Source of the DNA: Actinomycetota bacterium
GTDB lineage: Bacteria; Actinomycetota; Thermoleophilia; Solirubrobacterales; 70-9
Length of the DNA: 64,000 nt
Direction: 5' to 3'
NCBI GenBank assembly: GCA_005885405.1
Contig: VAYN01000006.1
Location: 56,101-120,100, forward strand
In this document: piece by piece, positions 21,412 to 30,927 of the stretch
Numbering within the stretch: the first letter of the stretch is position 1
Layout of the letters: every line of letters starts with the position of its first letter
Program-made: the position numbers and the translations under genes
The notes under the pieces: model-generated
Told to the model about the DNA's origin: nothing
The model's database searches: none
What the model saw: only the letters and a program-made list of their open reading frames with translations

Positions 21412-23058
21412 ATGGCGAGACCCCTCCGCAACGCCCCGGTGATCCTCCTCGCCGCCACCCTCGTGACGGCGGCGGTGATGATCCTCGCGCTGACCTGGGA
21501 CTACACGTTCCTGCAGGACACCTGGAGCTTCCTGATCAACCGGCGCGAGTTCGACGCCGACGCGATCCTCCAGCCCCACAACGAGCACATCGTCGTCATC
21601 CCGGTGCTGATCCAGCAGCTGTTCCTCCACCTCTTCGGGATGGACACCGCAAAGCCGGAAATCTTCCTGCTGACGCTCAGCCTCCTTGCCACTGCCGTCC
21701 TCCTCTTCGTCTACCTCAGCCGCCGGGTCGGCCAGTGGCTCGCCCTCTTCGCGACGATCCTGATCCTCTGCCTCGGCCCCGCCTGGGAGCTACTGCTTTG
21801 GCCCTTCGAGGTGAGCCTGATCGGCTCGATGCTCTTCGGATTGGCGATGTTGCTGGCCCTGGAACGCGAGGACCGCGTGGGGGACGTCCTTGCCTGCCTC
21901 TTCCTCGCCGTCTCCTTCGGCTTCTCCAGCCTCGGTATCCCCTTCGCGGTGGCAGCGTTTGTCGCCGTCATGCAGTCGCCGCGGGAGCGGCGCTGGGGGC
22001 GCGTCTACGTCTTCCTCGTGCCGTTGGTCCTCTACGCCCTCTGGTACCTCGGCTGGGGCAGCGAGGCCGAATCGCACCTCAGCGCCCGCAACGTCCTCGC
22101 TTCCCCCCGCTTCGTCGCCGAAGCGATGGCGGTCGGGGTCGGCAACCTTTTCGGGCTGGGGACGAACCCGATCGACGGGATGGCCGAAAAGATCTGGGGA
22201 GCGGTTCTGCTGACGCTGCTCGTCATTGCGCTTGTCTGGCAGAAGCTGCGCAAGCCGGGGATCGACCCGCGCTTCTGGCCTGTTGCCGCCGCCGCGGCCG
22301 CCAACTGGTTCCTGCTCGCCTTCAACCAGATGCCGGGGCGCGACGCGGTCTCCAGCCGCTACCAGTACGCGAGTTGCATCTTCCTCCTGATGCTGGCGGC
22401 GAACCTGCTCTCGGGGGAGCGGATCGGCAGGCGCGGAGTGCTGGTCGGAGCAGTGGTGACGGCGCTGGTGATCGGCCCGAACGTGGTCGTGCTCGAGAAC
22501 GGCAGCGACTTCTTCGACCGCCAGACCGTCTTCACGCGGACCGACACGCGGGCGATTGAGATCGCCCGCCGCACGGTCGACCCCGACTTCCAGCTGACGC
22601 CCGAAGTTGCCGGCGCCCCCGCCCTCATCGACATCGTCGCCGGCAAGTACCTCGAAGCCGTCGACGAATATGGCTCACCGGCCTACTCGTTGGCCGAACT
22701 GGAAGCCGCGTCCCCGGAAGCGCGCCGCCAGGCCGATCTCGTCCTCGCCGCGGCGCTGCCGCTGTCGGCGCGGGTGCGGTCGGGCGTCTATGACCCGACG
22801 GCGGCCGAGAACTGCGGGCTGATCGGAGGTGCTGGGATGGAGGAGGTCGAGGCCGATCCTGGGAGCACCCGCGTTGAAGTACCGCCTGGCAGCGGGGCGA
22901 CGATCTCGATGCGCCGCTTTGCCAGCGGGGAATATCCGGTCAGCGTCGCCACGGTGGCCGGCGGTTCGACGACGACCCTGAGGGTGCCGCGGGACGAAGC
23001 GCCCCAGCCCTGGTACCTGCACGTCGAGGCGCCGCAGGGCGCCCGCGTCTGCCGATAG
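21412..23058 (+). CDS. Polytopic membrane protein with a C-terminal soluble domain
   Basis: The 548-residue product starts with a transmembrane helix (VILLAATLVTAAVMILAL). The conserved-looking outside loop YTFLQDTWSFLINRR leads to QPHNEHIVVIP, followed by about ten membrane segments. A C-terminal beta-rich soluble domain of about 130 residues begins near residue 420. The NEH-type loop after the first helix recurs in large actinobacterial membrane proteins next to glycosyltransferases. The ATG at 21412 places the first helix at the N-terminus; a TACACT box ends 11 nt upstream. No enzyme name can be justified. A GT-C-like role is suggested by topology only. Confidence 0.75.
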   Translation: MARPLRNAPVILLAATLVTAAVMILALTWDYTFLQDTWSFLINRREFDADAILQPHNEHIVVIPVLIQQLFLHLFGMDTAKPEIFLLTLSLLATAVLLFVYLSRRVGQWLALFATILILCLGPAWELLLWPFEVSLIGSMLFGLAMLLALEREDRVGDVLACLFLAVSFGFSSLGIPFAVAAFVAVMQSPRERRWGRVYVFLVPLVLYALWYLGWGSEAESHLSARNVLASPRFVAEAMAVGVGNLFGLGTNPIDGMAEKIWGAVLLTLLVIALVWQKLRKPGIDPRFWPVAAAAAANWFLLAFNQMPGRDAVSSRYQYASCIFLLMLAANLLSGERIGRRGVLVGAVVTALVIGPNVVVLENGSDFFDRQTVFTRTDTRAIEIARRTVDPDFQLTPEVAGAPALIDIVAGKYLEAVDEYGSPAYSLAELEAASPEARRQADLVLAAALPLSARVRSGVYDPTAAENCGLIGGAGMEEVEADPGSTRVEVPPGSGATISMRRFASGEYPVSVATVAGGSTTTLRVPRDEAPQPWYLHVEAPQGARVCR

Positions 23059-23065
23059 GCGTCGC

Positions 23066-23962
23066 CTAGAGCTCCTCGGCGATCCGCGGCGCTTCGCGGT
23101 TGAAGATCCAGACCGCGAAGGCGCAGAGGCCCACGTAGATCGCGAAGGCGGGCAGCAGGTGGAGCCAGCCGCCGGCTGCCTCGACCGCGGTCGGTGCGTC
23201 GGCTTCCAGCATCCAGACTCGGACCTGCTCGAAGATCACCGCCAGCGGGTTCAGCATCAGCAGCTGTTCGATCCGCTCGCTGAGGAAGGGCTGACCGCCG
23301 ATCGGGCCGAGGGGATAGAGGATCGGCGTCGCGTAGAAGAGGACCTGGGCGGCGACGGTCCAGATGATCGCGACGTCGCGGAAGCGGACGTAGAGGACCG
23401 AGAGGATCATGCTCACCGCGGCCGTGAAGACGAAGAGCGCGGCGACGGCGAAGGGGAACAGCAGCCAGGTCCACATCGGCTCGACACCCCAGGCGAGGAT
23501 GAAGACGACGACGATGACGAGGTTGAGGAGGAAGTTGAAGAAGGCCGTCAGTACGGTCGCGAGCGGGATTACCAGTCGCGGGAACTGGGTCTTGCGGACG
23601 ACCCCCTCCTGGACGACGACCGAGGCGACGGCGCTGCTCGTCGCTTCCTGGAAGAAGGTGAACTGGACGATCCCGAGCAGCAGCAGGACCGGGTAGTTGT
23701 CGAGACTGCTGCCGACTTTGAAGACCTGGGTGAAGACGAAGAGCAGGACCCCGAACAGCATCAGCGGCCGCACCAGCGACCAGAGGTAGCCGAAGACGGT
23801 GCCGAAGTAGGTGCGGCGGAACTCCGTCACCGACATCAGCCAGAGCAGGTCGAAGAAGCGACGCCGGCCGCCGCCGAGGGCGGACGGGCCGCGGACCTCG
23901 CGCAGCGGCTGCTGAGTCGGATGGCTGACGGGGGCCGGGGGGCTGATGCCGGTCTCGCTCAT
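23066..23962 (-). CDS. wzm: ABC-2 type polysaccharide export permease
   Basis: The 298-residue protein is the membrane subunit of a two-component ABC polysaccharide exporter of the TagG/Wzm/RfbA family. An amphipathic N-terminal stretch (FFDLLWLMSVTEFRRTY) precedes six membrane helices, with the LGIVQFTFFQEATSSAV segment between them. The start codon overlaps the end of the ATPase gene by 4 nt, so the pair is translationally coupled. The complex would move an undecaprenyl-linked glycan or teichoic-acid-like polymer across the cytoplasmic membrane. It converges with the membrane protein gene ending at 23058, 7 nt away. Confidence 0.92.
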   Translation of the reverse strand: MSETGISPPAPVSHPTQQPLREVRGPSALGGGRRRFFDLLWLMSVTEFRRTYFGTVFGYLWSLVRPLMLFGVLLFVFTQVFKVGSSLDNYPVLLLLGIVQFTFFQEATSSAVASVVVQEGVVRKTQFPRLVIPLATVLTAFFNFLLNLVIVVVFILAWGVEPMWTWLLFPFAVAALFVFTAAVSMILSVLYVRFRDVAIIWTVAAQVLFYATPILYPLGPIGGQPFLSERIEQLLMLNPLAVIFEQVRVWMLEADAPTAVEAAGGWLHLLPAFAIYVGLCAFAVWIFNREAPRIAEEL

Positions 23963-25188
23963 CGCTCTCCCGTGCGATCGAGTTCGGCGCCGGTCTGGTG
24001 GGGGAGGGTGACGACCCCGCTCGGCGTGTCGACGCCGGCGTAGACGACGAAGTCGATCGCGTTGTGGACGTAGAGGGTGACGGTATGGCCGTCGGCGCGA
24101 TTGACGCCGCAGTGGATGAAGTAATGGCCCTGCGTAAGCAGGTTCTCGATGTCGGCGCGGACGGTGAAGCGCGTCCCGGGGCGGAGCGGTGAGGAATCGT
24201 CTTCGCCTTCGACCGGGACGCCGAACTGGAAGACGCCGACGCCGTCGGCGTTGGAGATGATGAAGCCGACCCCGACCCTTGGGAACTCCTGCAACGCTTC
24301 CATCTCGATCCGGATCCGGATTTCCTGGTCGCCGCCGACGTTCTCGATTCTCTTGCCGTCCGCGTCCTCGAGCCAGGCGTCGAGCATCTTCACCTCGTCG
24401 GTCGGGCCGGTGGTCGGAGAGGTGCCATCTTCGCTGCCTCGCTCGAAGTTCAGCTGCAGGTAATGGCGCCCGACCTCACCGGGATCGCCCAGGTGCTGGA
24501 TGCGGCCGCCGTCGATCAGCATCGCCCGGTGGCAGTAGCGCTCGACCGTGGTCATCTCGTGGGTAACGAGGATGATCGTCTTGCCTGCCGCTTTCATCTC
24601 CTGGAAGGCGTCGGCGCACTTCTGCTGGAAGGAGGCGTCGCCGACCGCGAGCACCTCGTCGATCAGGAGGATGTCGGCGTCGGCCTCCATCATCACCGAG
24701 AAGGCGAGGCGGACCAGCATCCCCGACGAGTAGTTCTTCAGCTTCAGGTCGGCGAATTCGGTCAGCTCCGCGAACTCGATCACCGCGTCGAGGCGGCGTC
24801 GCGTCTCGCCCGGGGTGAGTCCGATCATCACCCCGTTGAGGACGACGTTTTCGCGCGCCGTCAGCTCCGGGTTGAAGCCGACCCCGAGCTCGATGAAGGG
24901 GGCGATTCGGCCCGCCATCCGGATCTTGCCGGCGTCGGCGCGGTAGATGCTGGCCAGGAGTTTCAGCAGCGTGCTCTTGCCGGAGCCGTTGCGGCCGACG
25001 ATCCCGAAGAACTCGCCTTGGGCGATCTCAAAAGAGACGCCGTCGAGCGCCCGCAGCTCGCGGTAGTCGCGCCCGGAGAACGGGTGGACGACGCGCTCTT
25101 TCAGCGAGTCGACCCGATTCGTCGGGATCCGGAAGGACTTGTGGAGGTCCTCGACCTGGATTGCGGGCGCCTTGAAATCCGACTCCAT
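23959..25188 (-). CDS. wzt: ABC polysaccharide exporter ATPase with C-terminal Wzt domain
   Basis: The 409-residue product is the ATPase partner of the permease. It has Walker A GRNGSGKS, the signature YSSGM, Walker B ILLIDEVLAVGD and the switch histidine in VTHEM. After about residue 260 an added beta-rich domain of about 140 residues follows, the position of the Wzt carbohydrate-binding domain that in known systems recognises the cap on the finished chain. ATG 25188 was chosen because it begins the conserved N-terminal sequence and has TAAGGT 7 nt upstream; the frame stays open upstream without conservation. The presence of the Wzt domain suggests that a terminal modification, perhaps by the coiled-coil methyltransferase, licenses export. 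Confidence 0.92.
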   Translation of the reverse strand: MESDFKAPAIQVEDLHKSFRIPTNRVDSLKERVVHPFSGRDYRELRALDGVSFEIAQGEFFGIVGRNGSGKSTLLKLLASIYRADAGKIRMAGRIAPFIELGVGFNPELTARENVVLNGVMIGLTPGETRRRLDAVIEFAELTEFADLKLKNYSSGMLVRLAFSVMMEADADILLIDEVLAVGDASFQQKCADAFQEMKAAGKTIILVTHEMTTVERYCHRAMLIDGGRIQHLGDPGEVGRHYLQLNFERGSEDGTSPTTGPTDEVKMLDAWLEDADGKRIENVGGDQEIRIRIEMEALQEFPRVGVGFIISNADGVGVFQFGVPVEGEDDSSPLRPGTRFTVRADIENLLTQGHYFIHCGVNRADGHTVTLYVHNAIDFVVYAGVDTPSGVVTLPHQTGAELDRTGER

Positions 25189-25195
25189 CGGGCGC

Positions 25196-25205
25196 ACCTT
25201 AGTCT
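25196..25205. promoter_or_regulatory. Overlapping divergent -10 boxes for wzt and the glycosyltransferase gene
   Basis: TAAGGT on the minus strand (25196-25201) lies 7 nt before the wzt ATG at 25188. TAGTCT on the plus strand (25200-25205) lies 8 nt before the GTG at 25214. The two hexamers share two base pairs, so polymerase could occupy only one at a time. Only 25 nt separate the two start codons and neither side has a Shine-Dalgarno sequence. Confidence 0.5.
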
Positions 25206-25213
25206 TCCTCGCG

Positions 25214-27088
25214 GTGGCCGCGAGCAGCAGGATCTGCATCGTCTCCCCGGGGGACGCCCTCGGTGCCAGGGTCGCCGCTGCCACGCGTCGGCAGGCGGAG
25301 GTGCTGGGGGATCGGCACGAGGTGACCCTGATCGAGGACCCCGAGCCGAGCGAGGCGATCTCCTCCTTCTCCTTTGCCAGCGAGGACCACCGCCGCTCGG
25401 CCGCCGTCCTCGAGGCGATCGAGGCGGCCTATCAGCCTGATCGCCCGCCGCACTACCTCGAGGTCTGCGATTTCCGCGCCCCCGGCCTGGTTGCGTTGCA
25501 GGCGCGGGCGGCGGGCCACGAGCTCCTGCGCGGGACCACGATCGGCGTCCGTGCGACCGCCAGCGCCGAGCTGCTGGCCCTCTACGACGGGTCCCCGGAG
25601 CTCGGGGGCGAAGAGCGGGCCGCCGAGCTCGAGCGCGAGCAGTTGCGGCTCGCCGACCGGCTGCTCTGGCCGGGCGGCGACGTCCTCGACCGCTACCAGC
25701 GGCACTACGCCGACCTCGCGCTTCCGCCCGCGGTGCGGGCCGGGTGCCCTCCGCCCCCGCCGGAGCCTGCACGGGCTCTTCCGCCAGCTCCCCCCGCTGG
25801 GCCCTTGCGGATCCTCTGCCTCGGCGCTCTCAACCGGCGCAGCGGAGTCATCGACCTGGTCGAAGCCTGCCTCGCCCTGCCCGAGGATGAGTGGGAGCTG
25901 ACCCTGGTCGGCGCCGACACGGAGACGGCGCCGCTGGGGCAGTCGATGCAAATGACGATCGAGATGATCTGCGGCGGCGACCCGAGGGTGCGGATCATCG
26001 AGCCGGCCGCCGACGAGGAGCTGCACGCCCGTTTCGGCGAGCACGACCTGCTGGCGGTCCCCTCGATCTTCGAAGTCTGCTCTCACCTTGCCCTCGAAGC
26101 GATGCGGGCCGGGCTGCCGGTGCTCACCACTCCGGTCGGCGCCCACGTCGAGGCGGTCGAGCCGGGGGTCAGCGGCTGGCTTTGCGAGGACGTCGGCGCC
26201 GCCGCGATCGGGCGGGCGCTGACGCCGTTGGTCGGCGACCCGGAGGCCGTTGCCCGGGTCCGTTCCTCCAAGGGGCTTGCCGAGGTCGTCCGCCGCGCGG
26301 CCGATCCGAAGGCGATGCTCGATGCGTACGACGAGATGCTCGGAGAAGCGCATGCCCCCACCTCCTCGAGAGCGGCCGTTCAGCCTACGCAGGTCACGGC
26401 CGTCGTCCCCTACTACCGCGCTCACCTCTACGTGGCTGAGGCGGTGGGCTCCCTTCTCGCGCAGACTCACACGGAGCTAGACGTCGTCCTCGTCGACGAC
26501 GGCTCCTTCGCCCCGGAGGACGGGGTTCTGGACGAGCTCGCAGCCGATCCTCGGGTGCGGGTGGTGCATCAGCGCAATCGCGGCGACACGATCGCGCGCA
26601 ATCTCGGCATCACCCTCGCCGAGGGCGACTACCTGTTGATGTTTGATGCCGACAACGTGCTCGAGCCGGAGTTCGTCGCCCGGGCGCTGGAGCTGCTCCA
26701 AACCGATCCGGAGCTGGCCTATGTCACCTGCTGGCTGCGATACATCGACCCTGGGGGTGAAGCTCTCAACGGTGGCGGCTACGCCCCACTCGGCAACCGC
26801 GTCCTCAGCAGCGAAGAGGAGAACTGGGACGGAGACACCGCCGCCCTCACCTCGCGTCGGTGGCTGGAGCGGCTGCGCTTCCCGTTTCACCCCCGGGCGA
26901 CGATTCACAGCGACTGGGACCTGTATCGCCGCCTCCGGGAGGTCGGTGGGTACGGTGCCGTCATCCCCGAGCCCTTGGCCAGATACCGGATCCAGCCGCA
27001 ATCGATCCTGCGTTCGCACGACCGCGCGCTGCACCGGCGCAGCTGGGCGGAGATGAGGAGCTGGCGTCGCCTTGAACGAGCAGGCTGA
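25214..27088 (+). CDS. Fused family 4 / family 2 glycosyltransferase
   Basis: The 624-residue protein joins two glycosyltransferase folds. Residues 1 to about 370 are a GT-B family-4 enzyme: ILCLGALNRRSGV opens the C-terminal Rossmann half, and VPSIFEVCSHLALEAM is the donor-binding EX7E-like helix region. Residues about 385-620 are a GT-A family-2 enzyme (TAVVPYYRAHLYV, LVDDGS, MFDADNVLEP). The two active sites would add two sugars in sequence. GTG 25214 was chosen because the first strand (ICIVSPGD) follows directly and a TAGTCT box lies 8 nt upstream. A short coiled-coil gene overlaps its end. Confidence 0.85.
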   Translation: MAASSRICIVSPGDALGARVAAATRRQAEVLGDRHEVTLIEDPEPSEAISSFSFASEDHRRSAAVLEAIEAAYQPDRPPHYLEVCDFRAPGLVALQARAAGHELLRGTTIGVRATASAELLALYDGSPELGGEERAAELEREQLRLADRLLWPGGDVLDRYQRHYADLALPPAVRAGCPPPPPEPARALPPAPPAGPLRILCLGALNRRSGVIDLVEACLALPEDEWELTLVGADTETAPLGQSMQMTIEMICGGDPRVRIIEPAADEELHARFGEHDLLAVPSIFEVCSHLALEAMRAGLPVLTTPVGAHVEAVEPGVSGWLCEDVGAAAIGRALTPLVGDPEAVARVRSSKGLAEVVRRAADPKAMLDAYDEMLGEAHAPTSSRAAVQPTQVTAVVPYYRAHLYVAEAVGSLLAQTHTELDVVLVDDGSFAPEDGVLDELAADPRVRVVHQRNRGDTIARNLGITLAEGDYLLMFDADNVLEPEFVARALELLQTDPELAYVTCWLRYIDPGGEALNGGGYAPLGNRVLSSEEENWDGDTAALTSRRWLERLRFPFHPRATIHSDWDLYRRLREVGGYGAVIPEPLARYRIQPQSILRSHDRALHRRSWAEMRSWRRLERAG

Positions 27089-27457: not shown

Positions 27458-28537
27458 ATGGAGCCCTTGAAGGGACTGATCCTCTCCGGCGGCGCCGGCA
27501 CCCGCCTGCGCCCGATCACCCACACCTCGGCCAAGCAGCTGGTGCCGGTGGCCAACAAGCCCGTGCTCTTCTACGGGATTGAGGCGCTGGTCGAGGCCGG
27601 GGTGAAGGAGATCGGGATCATCATCGCCCCGGAGACGGGCGACGAGATCCGTGCCGCCGCCGGCGACGGCTCGCAGTTCGGCGCCGAGATCACCTACATC
27701 GTCCAGGACTCGCCGGCCGGGCTCGCCCATGCGGTGCTGACCGCCGAGGACTTCATCGGCTCCTCGCCCTTCGTCATGTACCTGGGGGACAACCTCCTCC
27801 GCGACGGCCTCCGCGGCCTCGTCTCCACCTTCACCGAGCACGAACCGGACGCCTTGATCCTGCTTACGCCGGTCGACGATCCGGAGTCCTACGGCGTCGC
27901 CGAGCTTGACGGCGAGGACAACATCGTCCGCCTGATCGAGAAGCCGAAAGACCCGCCCTCGAACCTGGCGCTGGTCGGCGTCTACCTCTTCCAGAACCTG
28001 ATCTTCGACGCCGCCCGCTCGCTCGAGCCCTCATGGCGCGGCGAGCTCGAGATCACCGAGGCGATCGACAAGTTGATCGACGACGGTCGCACGGTCCGCT
28101 CCGAGGTCGTGCGGGGCTGGTGGAAGGACACCGGCCAGCTCGCCGACATGCTCGAGGCCAACCGCCTCGTGCTGGAGGAGCTCGTGACCGAGATCGAGGG
28201 CGACGTCGACGAGGACTCCAAGGTCGAGGGCCGGGTCGTGATCGGCCCCGGCGCCAAGCTCGAGCGCGCGGTCGTCCGCGGCCCCGCCGTGATCGGCGCC
28301 GGCGCCCACATCGAGGACGCCTTCATCGGCCCCTACACCTCGATCGGCGACGACGTCCACGTCCGCCGCTCCGAAGTCGAGAACTCGATCGTCCTCTCCG
28401 GCTCCGTGGTCGAGGACCTCGGCACCCGGATGGAGGCGAGCCTGCTCGGCAAGGAAGTGAAGTTGACCCGCAGCCAGGGGATGCCGCAGACCCTGCAGCT
28501 CCTGGTCGGCGACCGCTCCGAGATCAAACTCGTCTAG
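27458..28537 (+). CDS. rmlA: Glucose-1-phosphate thymidylyltransferase, long form
   Basis: The 359-residue enzyme makes dTDP-glucose from dTTP and glucose-1-phosphate. The N-terminal signature LSGGAGTRLRPIT and the lysine-containing SAKQLVPVANKP are present, followed by YLGDN and EKPKDPPSN. Unlike the short RmlA of enterobacteria it has a C-terminal left-handed beta-helix of about 100 residues (VIGPGAKL, VIGAGAHI, FIGPYTSIG). That matches the long RmlA/StrD-type enzymes of actinobacteria. It opens the rmlA-rmlD-rmlB-rmlC operon. TAGGGT lies 11 nt before the ATG. Confidence 0.93.
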   Translation: MEPLKGLILSGGAGTRLRPITHTSAKQLVPVANKPVLFYGIEALVEAGVKEIGIIIAPETGDEIRAAAGDGSQFGAEITYIVQDSPAGLAHAVLTAEDFIGSSPFVMYLGDNLLRDGLRGLVSTFTEHEPDALILLTPVDDPESYGVAELDGEDNIVRLIEKPKDPPSNLALVGVYLFQNLIFDAARSLEPSWRGELEITEAIDKLIDDGRTVRSEVVRGWWKDTGQLADMLEANRLVLEELVTEIEGDVDEDSKVEGRVVIGPGAKLERAVVRGPAVIGAGAHIEDAFIGPYTSIGDDVHVRRSEVENSIVLSGSVVEDLGTRMEASLLGKEVKLTRSQGMPQTLQLLVGDRSEIKLV

Positions 28538-28550
28538 TGGGGGTGGAGTT

Positions 28551-29399
28551 GTGAAGCTGCTCGTCACGGGAGCCGCCGGGATGCTGGGGCGCGACGTCCT
28601 CCTCGCCGCCGGCAACGCCGGCCACGACGTCGTCGGCTACGGCCGCGCCGAGCTCGACGTCACCAACCCCGGCACGCTCGATCGCAAGCTCGACCTCGAG
28701 CGGCCCGATGTCGTCATCAACTGCGCCGCCTGGACCGACGTCGACGGCGCCGAGACGGCCGAGGAGGCCGCCTTCGCCGTCAACGGCAGCGGCGCCGGCA
28801 ACGTCGCCGCGGCGGCCGCGAGAGTGGAAGCGCGGATCCTCCACGTCTCCACCGACTACGTCTTCGACGGCCTCAAGGGCGCGCCATACGTCGAGAGCGA
28901 CCAGCCGGCGCCGCTCTCTGCCTACGGCCGCACCAAGCTCGCCGGTGAGGAGGCGGTCGCCGCCGCCAACAAGCGCCACTTCATCGTCCGCTCGGCCGGC
29001 CTCTTCGGGCTCGGCGGCCGCAACTTCGTCGACACGATGCTGCAGCTGGCCCAGACCCGGAGCGAGGTGACCGTCGTCCGCGACCAGGTCGGCTCGCCGA
29101 CCTACACCTGGCACCTCGCCTACGGGATCGTCCGCTTGATCGAGGGGATCGAGTTCGGAATCCACCACATGGCGGCCGCCGGGCAGTGCTCCTGGTACGA
29201 GTTCGCCGGAGAGATCTTCGAGCAGGCAAAGGTCGAGTGCCGGGTGCTCTCGATCACCAGCGAAGAATTCGGCGCCGCGGCGCCGCGACCGCCTTTCTCG
29301 GCCCTGGTCAGCCAGCGCGAGCACGCGATCCGGCTGCCCAGCTGGCAGGACGGGCTGGCAGGCTATCTCGCCCAACGACAAGCGGAGGCAAGCGAATGA
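28551..29399 (+). CDS. rmlD: dTDP-4-dehydrorhamnose reductase
   Basis: The 282-residue SDR catalyses the last step of dTDP-L-rhamnose synthesis, NADPH reduction of dTDP-4-keto-L-rhamnose. It has TGAAGMLGRDV as nucleotide-binding loop, INCAAWTDVDGAE, STDYVFDG and the YGRTK Tyr/Lys pair. Its length fits the family. It starts with GTG 13 nt after rmlA, with GGGGGTGGAG as a possible ribosome-binding region, and its stop overlaps the rmlB start as ATGA. Confidence 0.94.
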   Translation: MKLLVTGAAGMLGRDVLLAAGNAGHDVVGYGRAELDVTNPGTLDRKLDLERPDVVINCAAWTDVDGAETAEEAAFAVNGSGAGNVAAAAARVEARILHVSTDYVFDGLKGAPYVESDQPAPLSAYGRTKLAGEEAVAAANKRHFIVRSAGLFGLGGRNFVDTMLQLAQTRSEVTVVRDQVGSPTYTWHLAYGIVRLIEGIEFGIHHMAAAGQCSWYEFAGEIFEQAKVECRVLSITSEEFGAAAPRPPFSALVSQREHAIRLPSWQDGLAGYLAQRQAEASE

Positions 29400-30379
29400 G
29401 ACTCCTGGTGACCGGCGCCGCCGGCTTCATCGGCTCCACCTACGTCCGGTTGGTCGGCGACGAGCACGACGTCGTCGTCCTCGACAAGCTCACCTATGCA
29501 GGGCGGCGCGAGAACCTGCCCGAGGGGACGAACCTGATCGAGGGGGCGATCGAGGACCCAGCGGTCGTCCGCGAAGCGATGCAGGGCGTCGACGCCGTCG
29601 TCAACTTCGCCGCCGAGTCCCACGTCGACCGCTCGATCGACGACCAGGAAGCGTTCGCCCGCACCCACGTCGTCGGCACCGGCACGCTGCTCGACGCGGC
29701 GCGGGAGCTCGGGGTCGAGCGCTACCTGCAGGTCTCGACCGACGAGGTCTACGGCTCGATCGAGTCCGGCTCCTTCACCGAGACCTCGCCGATCGATCCC
29801 TCCTCGCCCTACTCGGCGACGAAGGCCGCCGGCGACCTCCTCGTCTCCGCCCACTTCCACACCTACGGGATCGACGCCTCGATCGTCCGCGGCTCCAACA
29901 ACTACGGCCCGCGCCAGTACCCGGAGAAGCTGATCCCGCTGATCACGCTGAACGCCCTGCACCGCGACCCGCTGCCGGTCTACGGCGATGGCCGCCAAGT
30001 CCGCAACTGGCTCTTCGTCGAGGACTTCTGCACCGGCATCCACACGGTCCTCACCAAGGGCAAGGCCGGCGAGGCCTACAACGTCGGTGGTCCCGACGAG
30101 TGCGAGAACATCGAGGTCGTCAAGCGGGTGATCGAGCTGACCGGTGGCGACGAGTCGCTGATCGAATACGTCACCGATCGGCCGGGCCACGACCGCCGCT
30201 ACTCGCTCTCCTCCGAGAAGCTGAAGGCGGAGCTGGGCTGGGAGGCGCAGGTCCACTTCGCCGAGGGCCTCGAGCGGACCGTGCAGTGGTACCGCGACAA
30301 CGAGTGGTGGTGGGCGCCGATCCGGAGCGGCGAGTACCGCGAGTACTACGAAAAGCAGTACGGGAAGAGCCTGCGCTGA
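29396..30379 (+). CDS. rmlB: dTDP-glucose 4,6-dehydratase
   Basis: The 327-residue extended SDR performs the second step of the rhamnose pathway, converting dTDP-glucose to dTDP-4-keto-6-deoxyglucose with bound NAD. TGAAGFIGS is at the N-terminus, followed by NFAAESHVDRSI, STDEVYGS with the Asp-Glu acid pair, YSATK, and RGSNNYGPRQYPEKLIP. It starts at the ATG overlapping the rmlD stop, although the frame is open upstream. Its stop overlaps the rmlC start by one base. The Rml product is consistent with a rhamnose-containing surface polysaccharide. Confidence 0.95.
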   Translation: MRLLVTGAAGFIGSTYVRLVGDEHDVVVLDKLTYAGRRENLPEGTNLIEGAIEDPAVVREAMQGVDAVVNFAAESHVDRSIDDQEAFARTHVVGTGTLLDAARELGVERYLQVSTDEVYGSIESGSFTETSPIDPSSPYSATKAAGDLLVSAHFHTYGIDASIVRGSNNYGPRQYPEKLIPLITLNALHRDPLPVYGDGRQVRNWLFVEDFCTGIHTVLTKGKAGEAYNVGGPDECENIEVVKRVIELTGGDESLIEYVTDRPGHDRRYSLSSEKLKAELGWEAQVHFAEGLERTVQWYRDNEWWWAPIRSGEYREYYEKQYGKSLR

Positions 30380-30927
30380 TGGCAGAGCGGCTGCAGACGA
30401 AGCTCGACGGTGTGGTCCTGATCGAGCCGCAGGTCCACGGCGACGAGCGCGGCTTCATGGTCGAGTCCTTCAGCCGCGACGAGTGGCGGCGGCTCGGGGT
30501 CGAGGTCGACTTCGTCCAGCACAACCATTCGCGCTCGCGCCAGGGGACGCTGCGGGGGATCCACTTCCAGACCGAGCCGGGCCAGGCGAAGCTCGTCCGC
30601 TGCGCCCGCGGCGAGATCCTCGACGTCGCGGTCGACCTCCGCCGCGGCTCCCCGACCTATGGGCAGTGGGAGGCGCACCGCCTCGACGACGTCCGCCATC
30701 GCCAGCTCTTCGTCCCGGTCGGCTTCGGCCACGGCTTCGCGGTCCTCTCCGAGGAAGCCGACGTCGCCTACCAGGTCTCCAGCTACTACGACCCGGCAAC
30801 GGAGAAGGGGATCGCCTGGGACGACCCCGGCGTCGGCGTCGACTGGGAGGTCTCCGAGCCGCTCCTCTCCGAGCGCGACAAGACCGCTCCGACGCTGGCC
30901 GAGATCGGCGACGAGCTGCCCTTCTAG
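30379..30927 (+). CDS. rmlC: dTDP-4-dehydrorhamnose 3,5-epimerase
   Basis: The 182-residue cupin-like enzyme isomerises dTDP-4-keto-6-deoxyglucose to dTDP-4-keto-L-rhamnose. The core reads RGFMVESF, QHNHSRSRQGTLRGIHFQ with the catalytic histidine in the GIHFQ strand, and VPVGFGHGF; the catalytic tyrosine lies in AYQVSSYYDP. It completes the four-gene rhamnose set in the order A-D-B-C. Its stop codon overlaps that of the convergent methyltransferase gene by 4 nt, so no terminator lies between the two transcription units. Confidence 0.94.
   Translation: MAERLQTKLDGVVLIEPQVHGDERGFMVESFSRDEWRRLGVEVDFVQHNHSRSRQGTLRGIHFQTEPGQAKLVRCARGEILDVAVDLRRGSPTYGQWEAHRLDDVRHRQLFVPVGFGHGFAVLSEEADVAYQVSSYYDPATEKGIAWDDPGVGVDWEVSEPLLSERDKTAPTLAEIGDELPF

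Follow-up and report, generated by a model that had tools for sequence, protein, structure and literature searches.

The 25 nucleotides that separate the start codons of wzt and a divergently oriented glycosyltransferase gene (positions 25189-25213 of the window, by which we mean the whole stretch of 64,000 nucleotides analysed) probably act as a minimal bidirectional promoter from which two leaderless mRNAs would start. Its two orientations are predicted to exclude each other at any instant and to serve both genes in turn, which would give coupled low-level expression and not a switch. The features of the region are as follows.

23066-23962, minus strand: wzm, ABC-2 exporter permease (Pfam ABC2_membrane), the next gene after wzt
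23959-25188, minus strand: wzt, ABC exporter ATPase with a Wzt_C carbohydrate-binding domain (Pfam ABC_tran, Wzt_C)
25186-25188, minus strand (CAT on the plus strand): likely ATG start codon of wzt
25195-25199, minus strand: AGGTG, a weak Shine-Dalgarno-like string over the wzt box
25201-25196, minus strand: TAAGGT, predicted -10 box of wzt, 7 nt from the ATG; 18th percentile among the leaderless boxes of the genome
25200-25201, both strands: palindromic TA common to both boxes, T-12/A-11 in each direction
25200-25205, plus strand: TAGTCT, predicted -10 box of the glycosyltransferase gene, 8 nt from the GTG; 52nd percentile
25196-25205: ANNNTANNNT, both boxes with their common TA, recurring in six other divergent pairs of the genome
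25214-25216, plus strand: GTG start codon of the glycosyltransferase gene, in frame with the gene
25214-27088, plus strand: fused GT4-GT2 glycosyltransferase (Pfam Glycos_transf_1, Glycos_transf_2)
27458-30927, plus strand: rmlA, rmlD, rmlB and rmlC, dTDP-rhamnose synthesis (Pfam NTP_transferase, RmlD_sub_bind, GDP_Man_Dehyd/Epimerase, dTDP_sugar_isom)

The sequence-only reading had described two start codons 25 nt apart on opposite strands, each preceded at 7-8 nt by a TANNNT -10 box, with the two boxes overlapping by two bases. Checked against the sequence, these coordinates proved exact, with the ATG at 25188 on the minus strand, the GTG at 25214 on the plus strand and the overlap at the TA of 25200-25201. 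Both gaps fall within the 6-8 nt at which such boxes peak in this genome, and the pair T25200-A25201 supplies -10 base pairs common to both directions. A hexamer scan of positions 24700-25700 on both strands found TAAGGT and TAGTCT as the sole TANNNT sequences. We found no -35 element for either direction, and aligned leaderless promoters of the genome showed no -35 signal as a class. From this layout, transcription is predicted to start at or adjoining A25188 on the minus strand and G25214 on the plus strand.

The leaderless reading of both genes is well supported by the sequence grammar of the genome, in which we called genes by codon usage, on 808 kb at first and then on 2.33 of 2.61 Mb. 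Across the 2.33 Mb, and with a background TANNNT density of 0.07% per base per strand, the hexamer stood 6-8 nt before ATG or GTG in 10.8% of in-frame candidates as compared to 0.33% of out-of-frame ones, a 33-fold difference. At exactly 7 and 8 nt the in-frame frequencies were 3.9% and 2.5% against 0.11% out of frame, corresponding to enrichments of 35-fold and 23-fold. A TANNNT candidate was present 5-10 nt before the start of 518 of 2212 genes, where control hexamers of the same composition gave 63-177. We also considered a Shine-Dalgarno reading of the string TAAGGTG that covers the wzt box, and set it aside as weak since AGGTG is barely enriched before starts (1.6-fold). The earlier proposal that both genes lack a leader and have -10 boxes that overlap is thus upheld by the in-frame enrichment and by the TANNNT sequences found in homologues, with the start sites themselves remaining predictions. 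The best matches to RpoB of this organism were PDB chains that we take to be Streptomyces and mycobacterial polymerases, suggesting an actinomycete that branched early; a search for RbpA, the actinobacterial polymerase-binding protein, did not find it.

Comparison with homologues bears on whether the start codons have been assigned correctly, and gives good support to the GTG of the glycosyltransferase gene. Homologues of this protein start nearly at the same place: the two closest begin one residue ahead of a conserved motif and have an upstream TANNNT, 9 nt before the ATG in one (L011) and 10 nt before the GTG in the other (L010). Near this motif the GTG is the only start codon in the window. 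In a further locus (L013) we observed tandem TAAGG pentamers with several overlapping TAAGGT sequences, located ∼230-260 nt upstream of the start of glycosyltransferase homology. A scan of genome contigs for relatives of the glycosyltransferase returned one weak match from Clostridia. On the other strand, the wzt ATG lies 5-9 residues ahead of conserved sequence, and the wzt homologues L045, L051, L059 and L063 have a TANNNT a short way upstream of an ATG. Several wzt homologues from the same genus have longer N termini, and in these the TANNNT appears further upstream; an alternative in-frame ATG for wzt is present upstream at ∼25239, within the glycosyltransferase gene. We conclude that the ATG at 25188 is the likely start of wzt, and that wzt is the less certain side of the pair.

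Because the TA is palindromic, the two boxes are not independent, and once the first is present the second needs just one more T. The presence of one box may consequently be incidental to that of the other. We found that the T completing a second box after TA and three further bases occurs at a rate of 5.9% genome-wide, as compared to 7 of the 12 divergent pairs in which the partner start is rightly spaced. With the pair in the window left out the count is 6 of 11 (p = 1.5e-5 against the rate of 0.059, and 0.004 against plain base composition).

The same arrangement recurs elsewhere in the genome. Among 347 divergent pairs (2.33 Mb), both genes had leaderless candidates in 40, and in at least seven of the 347 the boxes had exactly 2 bp in common, the starts being separated by 24-29 nt; any other offset was seen in at most two pairs. 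The six pairs additional to that of the window are located at C13:33524-33555, C28:48347-48377, C28:247846-247876, C29:171024-171052, C13:142865-142898 and C13:158035-158068 of this genome (G000). Going by names read off their translations, they include ahcY/rpiA, phosphofructokinase/lipoprotein-like and aminotransferase-like/acetyltransferase-like pairs, and one pair with a rhomboid-like protein.

When the pattern CAT-N6-8-ANNNTANNNT-N6-8-ATG was sought in 101 genomes of the order, it was found at 198 sites in 80 of them. Backwards, the pattern gave 28 sites, and an AT-centred scramble, TNNNATNNNA, gave 91. Since reversed and scrambled controls lose the TA step, and this step is uncommon where GC content is high, we added the control TNNNTANNNA; this had 56 sites across the 101 genomes, even though chance favours it ∼4.8-fold over the real pattern. 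All of these counts include chance matches and palindromic sequence within genes, are drawn from related genomes that are not independent, and use predicted gene starts. The alternative TANNNTA, corresponding to the 18-bp form of bidirectional promoter discussed below, had 72 pattern sites. In the genome under study we found a single instance of that form, a murA-like/hydrolase-like divergent pair (C7:23622-23648) with an offset of 7 and gaps of 10 nt.

Orthologous divergent pairs retain ANNNTANNNT amid variable surroundings. We followed two pairs within genus g11, one of nadC and a methyltransferase-like gene (L235-L239, L248-L255 and L260) and one of a cyclase-like and an NAD-epimerase-like gene (L232-L234, L240-L242 and L261-L268), and sought their orthologues by N-terminal protein sequence so as to avoid choosing them by the motif. 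Of the orthologous pairs, all 16 whose starts were separated by 22-25 nt contained the element, including two GTG-start pairs that the pattern had missed, and none of the five with starts 47-91 nt apart did. As the seed pairs were taken from pattern matches, this comparison speaks to retention and not to frequency. On these comparisons the layout is conserved as a class and is not unique to wzt and the glycosyltransferase gene. We lean towards the broader view, somewhat more probable than its contrary, that selection maintains interlocked leaderless promoters (start codon, 6-10 nt, ANNNTANNNT, 6-10 nt, start codon) as a lasting feature of the order, each a near-minimal divergent promoter that orthologous pairs keep at a start spacing of ∼23 nt and that would couple two proteins in their expression by way of a single melting site.

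A DNA search of 49 other genomes of the family found no match across the wzt/glycosyltransferase junction, all matches falling within wzt or within the glycosyltransferase gene alone. The two genes are co-directional in L010 and L011, and same-genus wzt genes diverge from other partners, namely a GT2 gene (L041, L042 and L044) or membrane-protein genes (L043 and L050), as named from their translations. We therefore rejected a conserved divergence of wzt and the glycosyltransferase gene, wzt in relatives having other partners or orientations. By these searches the junction is private to this genome, and since it is not conserved, selection on this copy is unsupported.

From the Pfam assignments, the surrounding genes form a polysaccharide locus of the ABC-exporter type that includes dTDP-rhamnose synthesis. 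A short plus-strand ORF lies between the glycosyltransferase gene and rmlA. Convergent with wzm there is an ORF of 544 residues (window 21424-23058, plus strand) with a strong codon signal and no Pfam match. The exporter and glycan-synthesis sides of such loci cooperate, and a cell would be expected to require its exporter and its assembly genes at the same time; by family assignment both sides here belong to one polysaccharide locus, with no opposed or alternative product roles.

Bacterial bidirectional promoters in which the two directions have -10 base pairs in common have been described with start separations of 18, 10 and 23 bp (PMC12825309, PMC10268837; Warman, Grainger and co-workers), and small variations in start separation are reported as allowed (PMC12825309). 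The site in the window resembles these in having one pseudo-symmetrical -10 element in which T-12 pairs with the opposite A-11. By our own arithmetic, common T-12 and A-11 positions imply a separation of 23 bp, which is the box geometry of this site. The start codons here are 26 apart, as compared to the published 23-bp class, a difference that comes from gaps of 7 and 8 nt in place of 6. The site also differs in that each transcript, by prediction, lacks a leader and codes for protein from its first base. The 18-bp form prevails in most bacteria, whereas the 23-bp form is the commoner in this order (198 versus 72 sites). The site would thus fit the 23-bp bidirectional class, as a leaderless version of a promoter type already described.

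Leaderless genes with TANNNT ∼12 bp before the start codon have been reported in Actinobacteria and Deinococcus-Thermus (PMC3160421). Those genes agree with the ones analysed here in box, spacing, a high-GC genome, a share of about a fifth of genes and uninformative middle positions. Here, unlike there, two such genes on opposite strands are locked together by a TA that belongs to both boxes; divergent pairs are not treated in that report. The excerpted text of PMC3898074 describes prpD (Rv1130) and Rv1129c of Mycobacterium tuberculosis as a divergent pair in which mapped starts show both genes to be leaderless and which starvation co-induces, and calls closely juxtaposed divergent promoters common. 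This pair is like ours in being divergent and leaderless and unlike it in that the same excerpt describes no common -10 base pair. Our literature search for leaderless bidirectional promoters, incomplete in its coverage, found no paper on the subject.

The sequence-only reading had interpreted the overlap as a natural either/or switch between the exporter and glycan assembly genes that needs no leader or operator. An operator may be situated within one or other of the coding regions. Taken as regulation, such a switch would make polymerase competition at the common box a selected means of mutual exclusion. Its physical premise, that polymerases could not open both boxes at once, probably holds by analogy with the published work: the boxes have base pairs in common, so simultaneous binding of two polymerases would be sterically excluded (PMC12825309). 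Strong activation of one direction can moreover repress the opposite RNA. In five E. coli bidirectional promoters, however, such repression occurred only on strong activation, basal activity being too low for measurable competition. Regulatory switching requires high occupancy or an activator. The gene arrangement is not kept in relatives, the two genes act in one pathway, the same layout stands between unrelated enzymes such as ahcY and rpiA, and the prpD/Rv1129c pair is co-induced. Given a private junction, cooperative genes and users of the layout in unrelated metabolism, we rate a switch as very unlikely and do not retain that interpretation.

Another possibility is that only one box works; the other would have arisen incidentally from the palindromic TA, and its gene would be expressed on a leadered transcript from further upstream. 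That a single extra T suffices for the second box would accommodate this, as would the low rank of the wzt box (18th percentile), its overlap with the Shine-Dalgarno-like AGGTG and the same-genus wzt genes in which TANNNT seems to lie at a greater distance ahead of the ATG. We nevertheless think it unlikely, since neither direction has another TANNNT within 1 kb, the completing T is rare genome-wide but present in over half of the rightly spaced pairs, AGGTG is unenriched before starts here and both gaps lie within the genome's peak. More improbable than any of these is that another promoter type (an alternative sigma factor, or activator-dependent promoters within the neighbouring coding regions) drives one or both genes and that the TANNNT pair is coincidental. 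Both boxes do lack a -35 match, but so do leaderless promoters of this genome as a class, and each box at its spacing is 23-35 times above controls.

We thus return to the minimal bidirectional promoter as the probable explanation, and recognize that the weakness of the wzt box for this genome and the more upstream TANNNT of same-genus wzt genes count against it. RNA polymerase, presumably with the housekeeping sigma factor, would recognize one pseudo-symmetrical element, ANNNTANNNT. In one orientation it would read TAAGGT and start at or adjoining the wzt ATG; in the other it would read TAGTCT and start at or adjoining the GTG of the glycosyltransferase gene that leads to the rml genes. Because the boxes have T-12/A-11 in common, the orientations would be mutually exclusive at any instant. 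At ordinary low initiation rates, as we suppose for this promoter, the site would serve both genes alternately and apparently without antagonism, and hence exporter and glycan genes would be expressed in a coupled manner at a low level.

Bidirectional promoters have been defined via RNA-end mapping, largely in enteric bacteria. In leaderless-rich bacteria such as this one, start codons mark the expected RNA ends, so that bidirectional promoters would be findable by sequence alone and their conservation could be traced through evolution. The present analysis provides a candidate list of seven pairs in the genome and ∼200 pattern sites in the order, some of them expected by chance, and this may bear on the question of whether common -10 boxes are tolerated by-products or are kept by selection.
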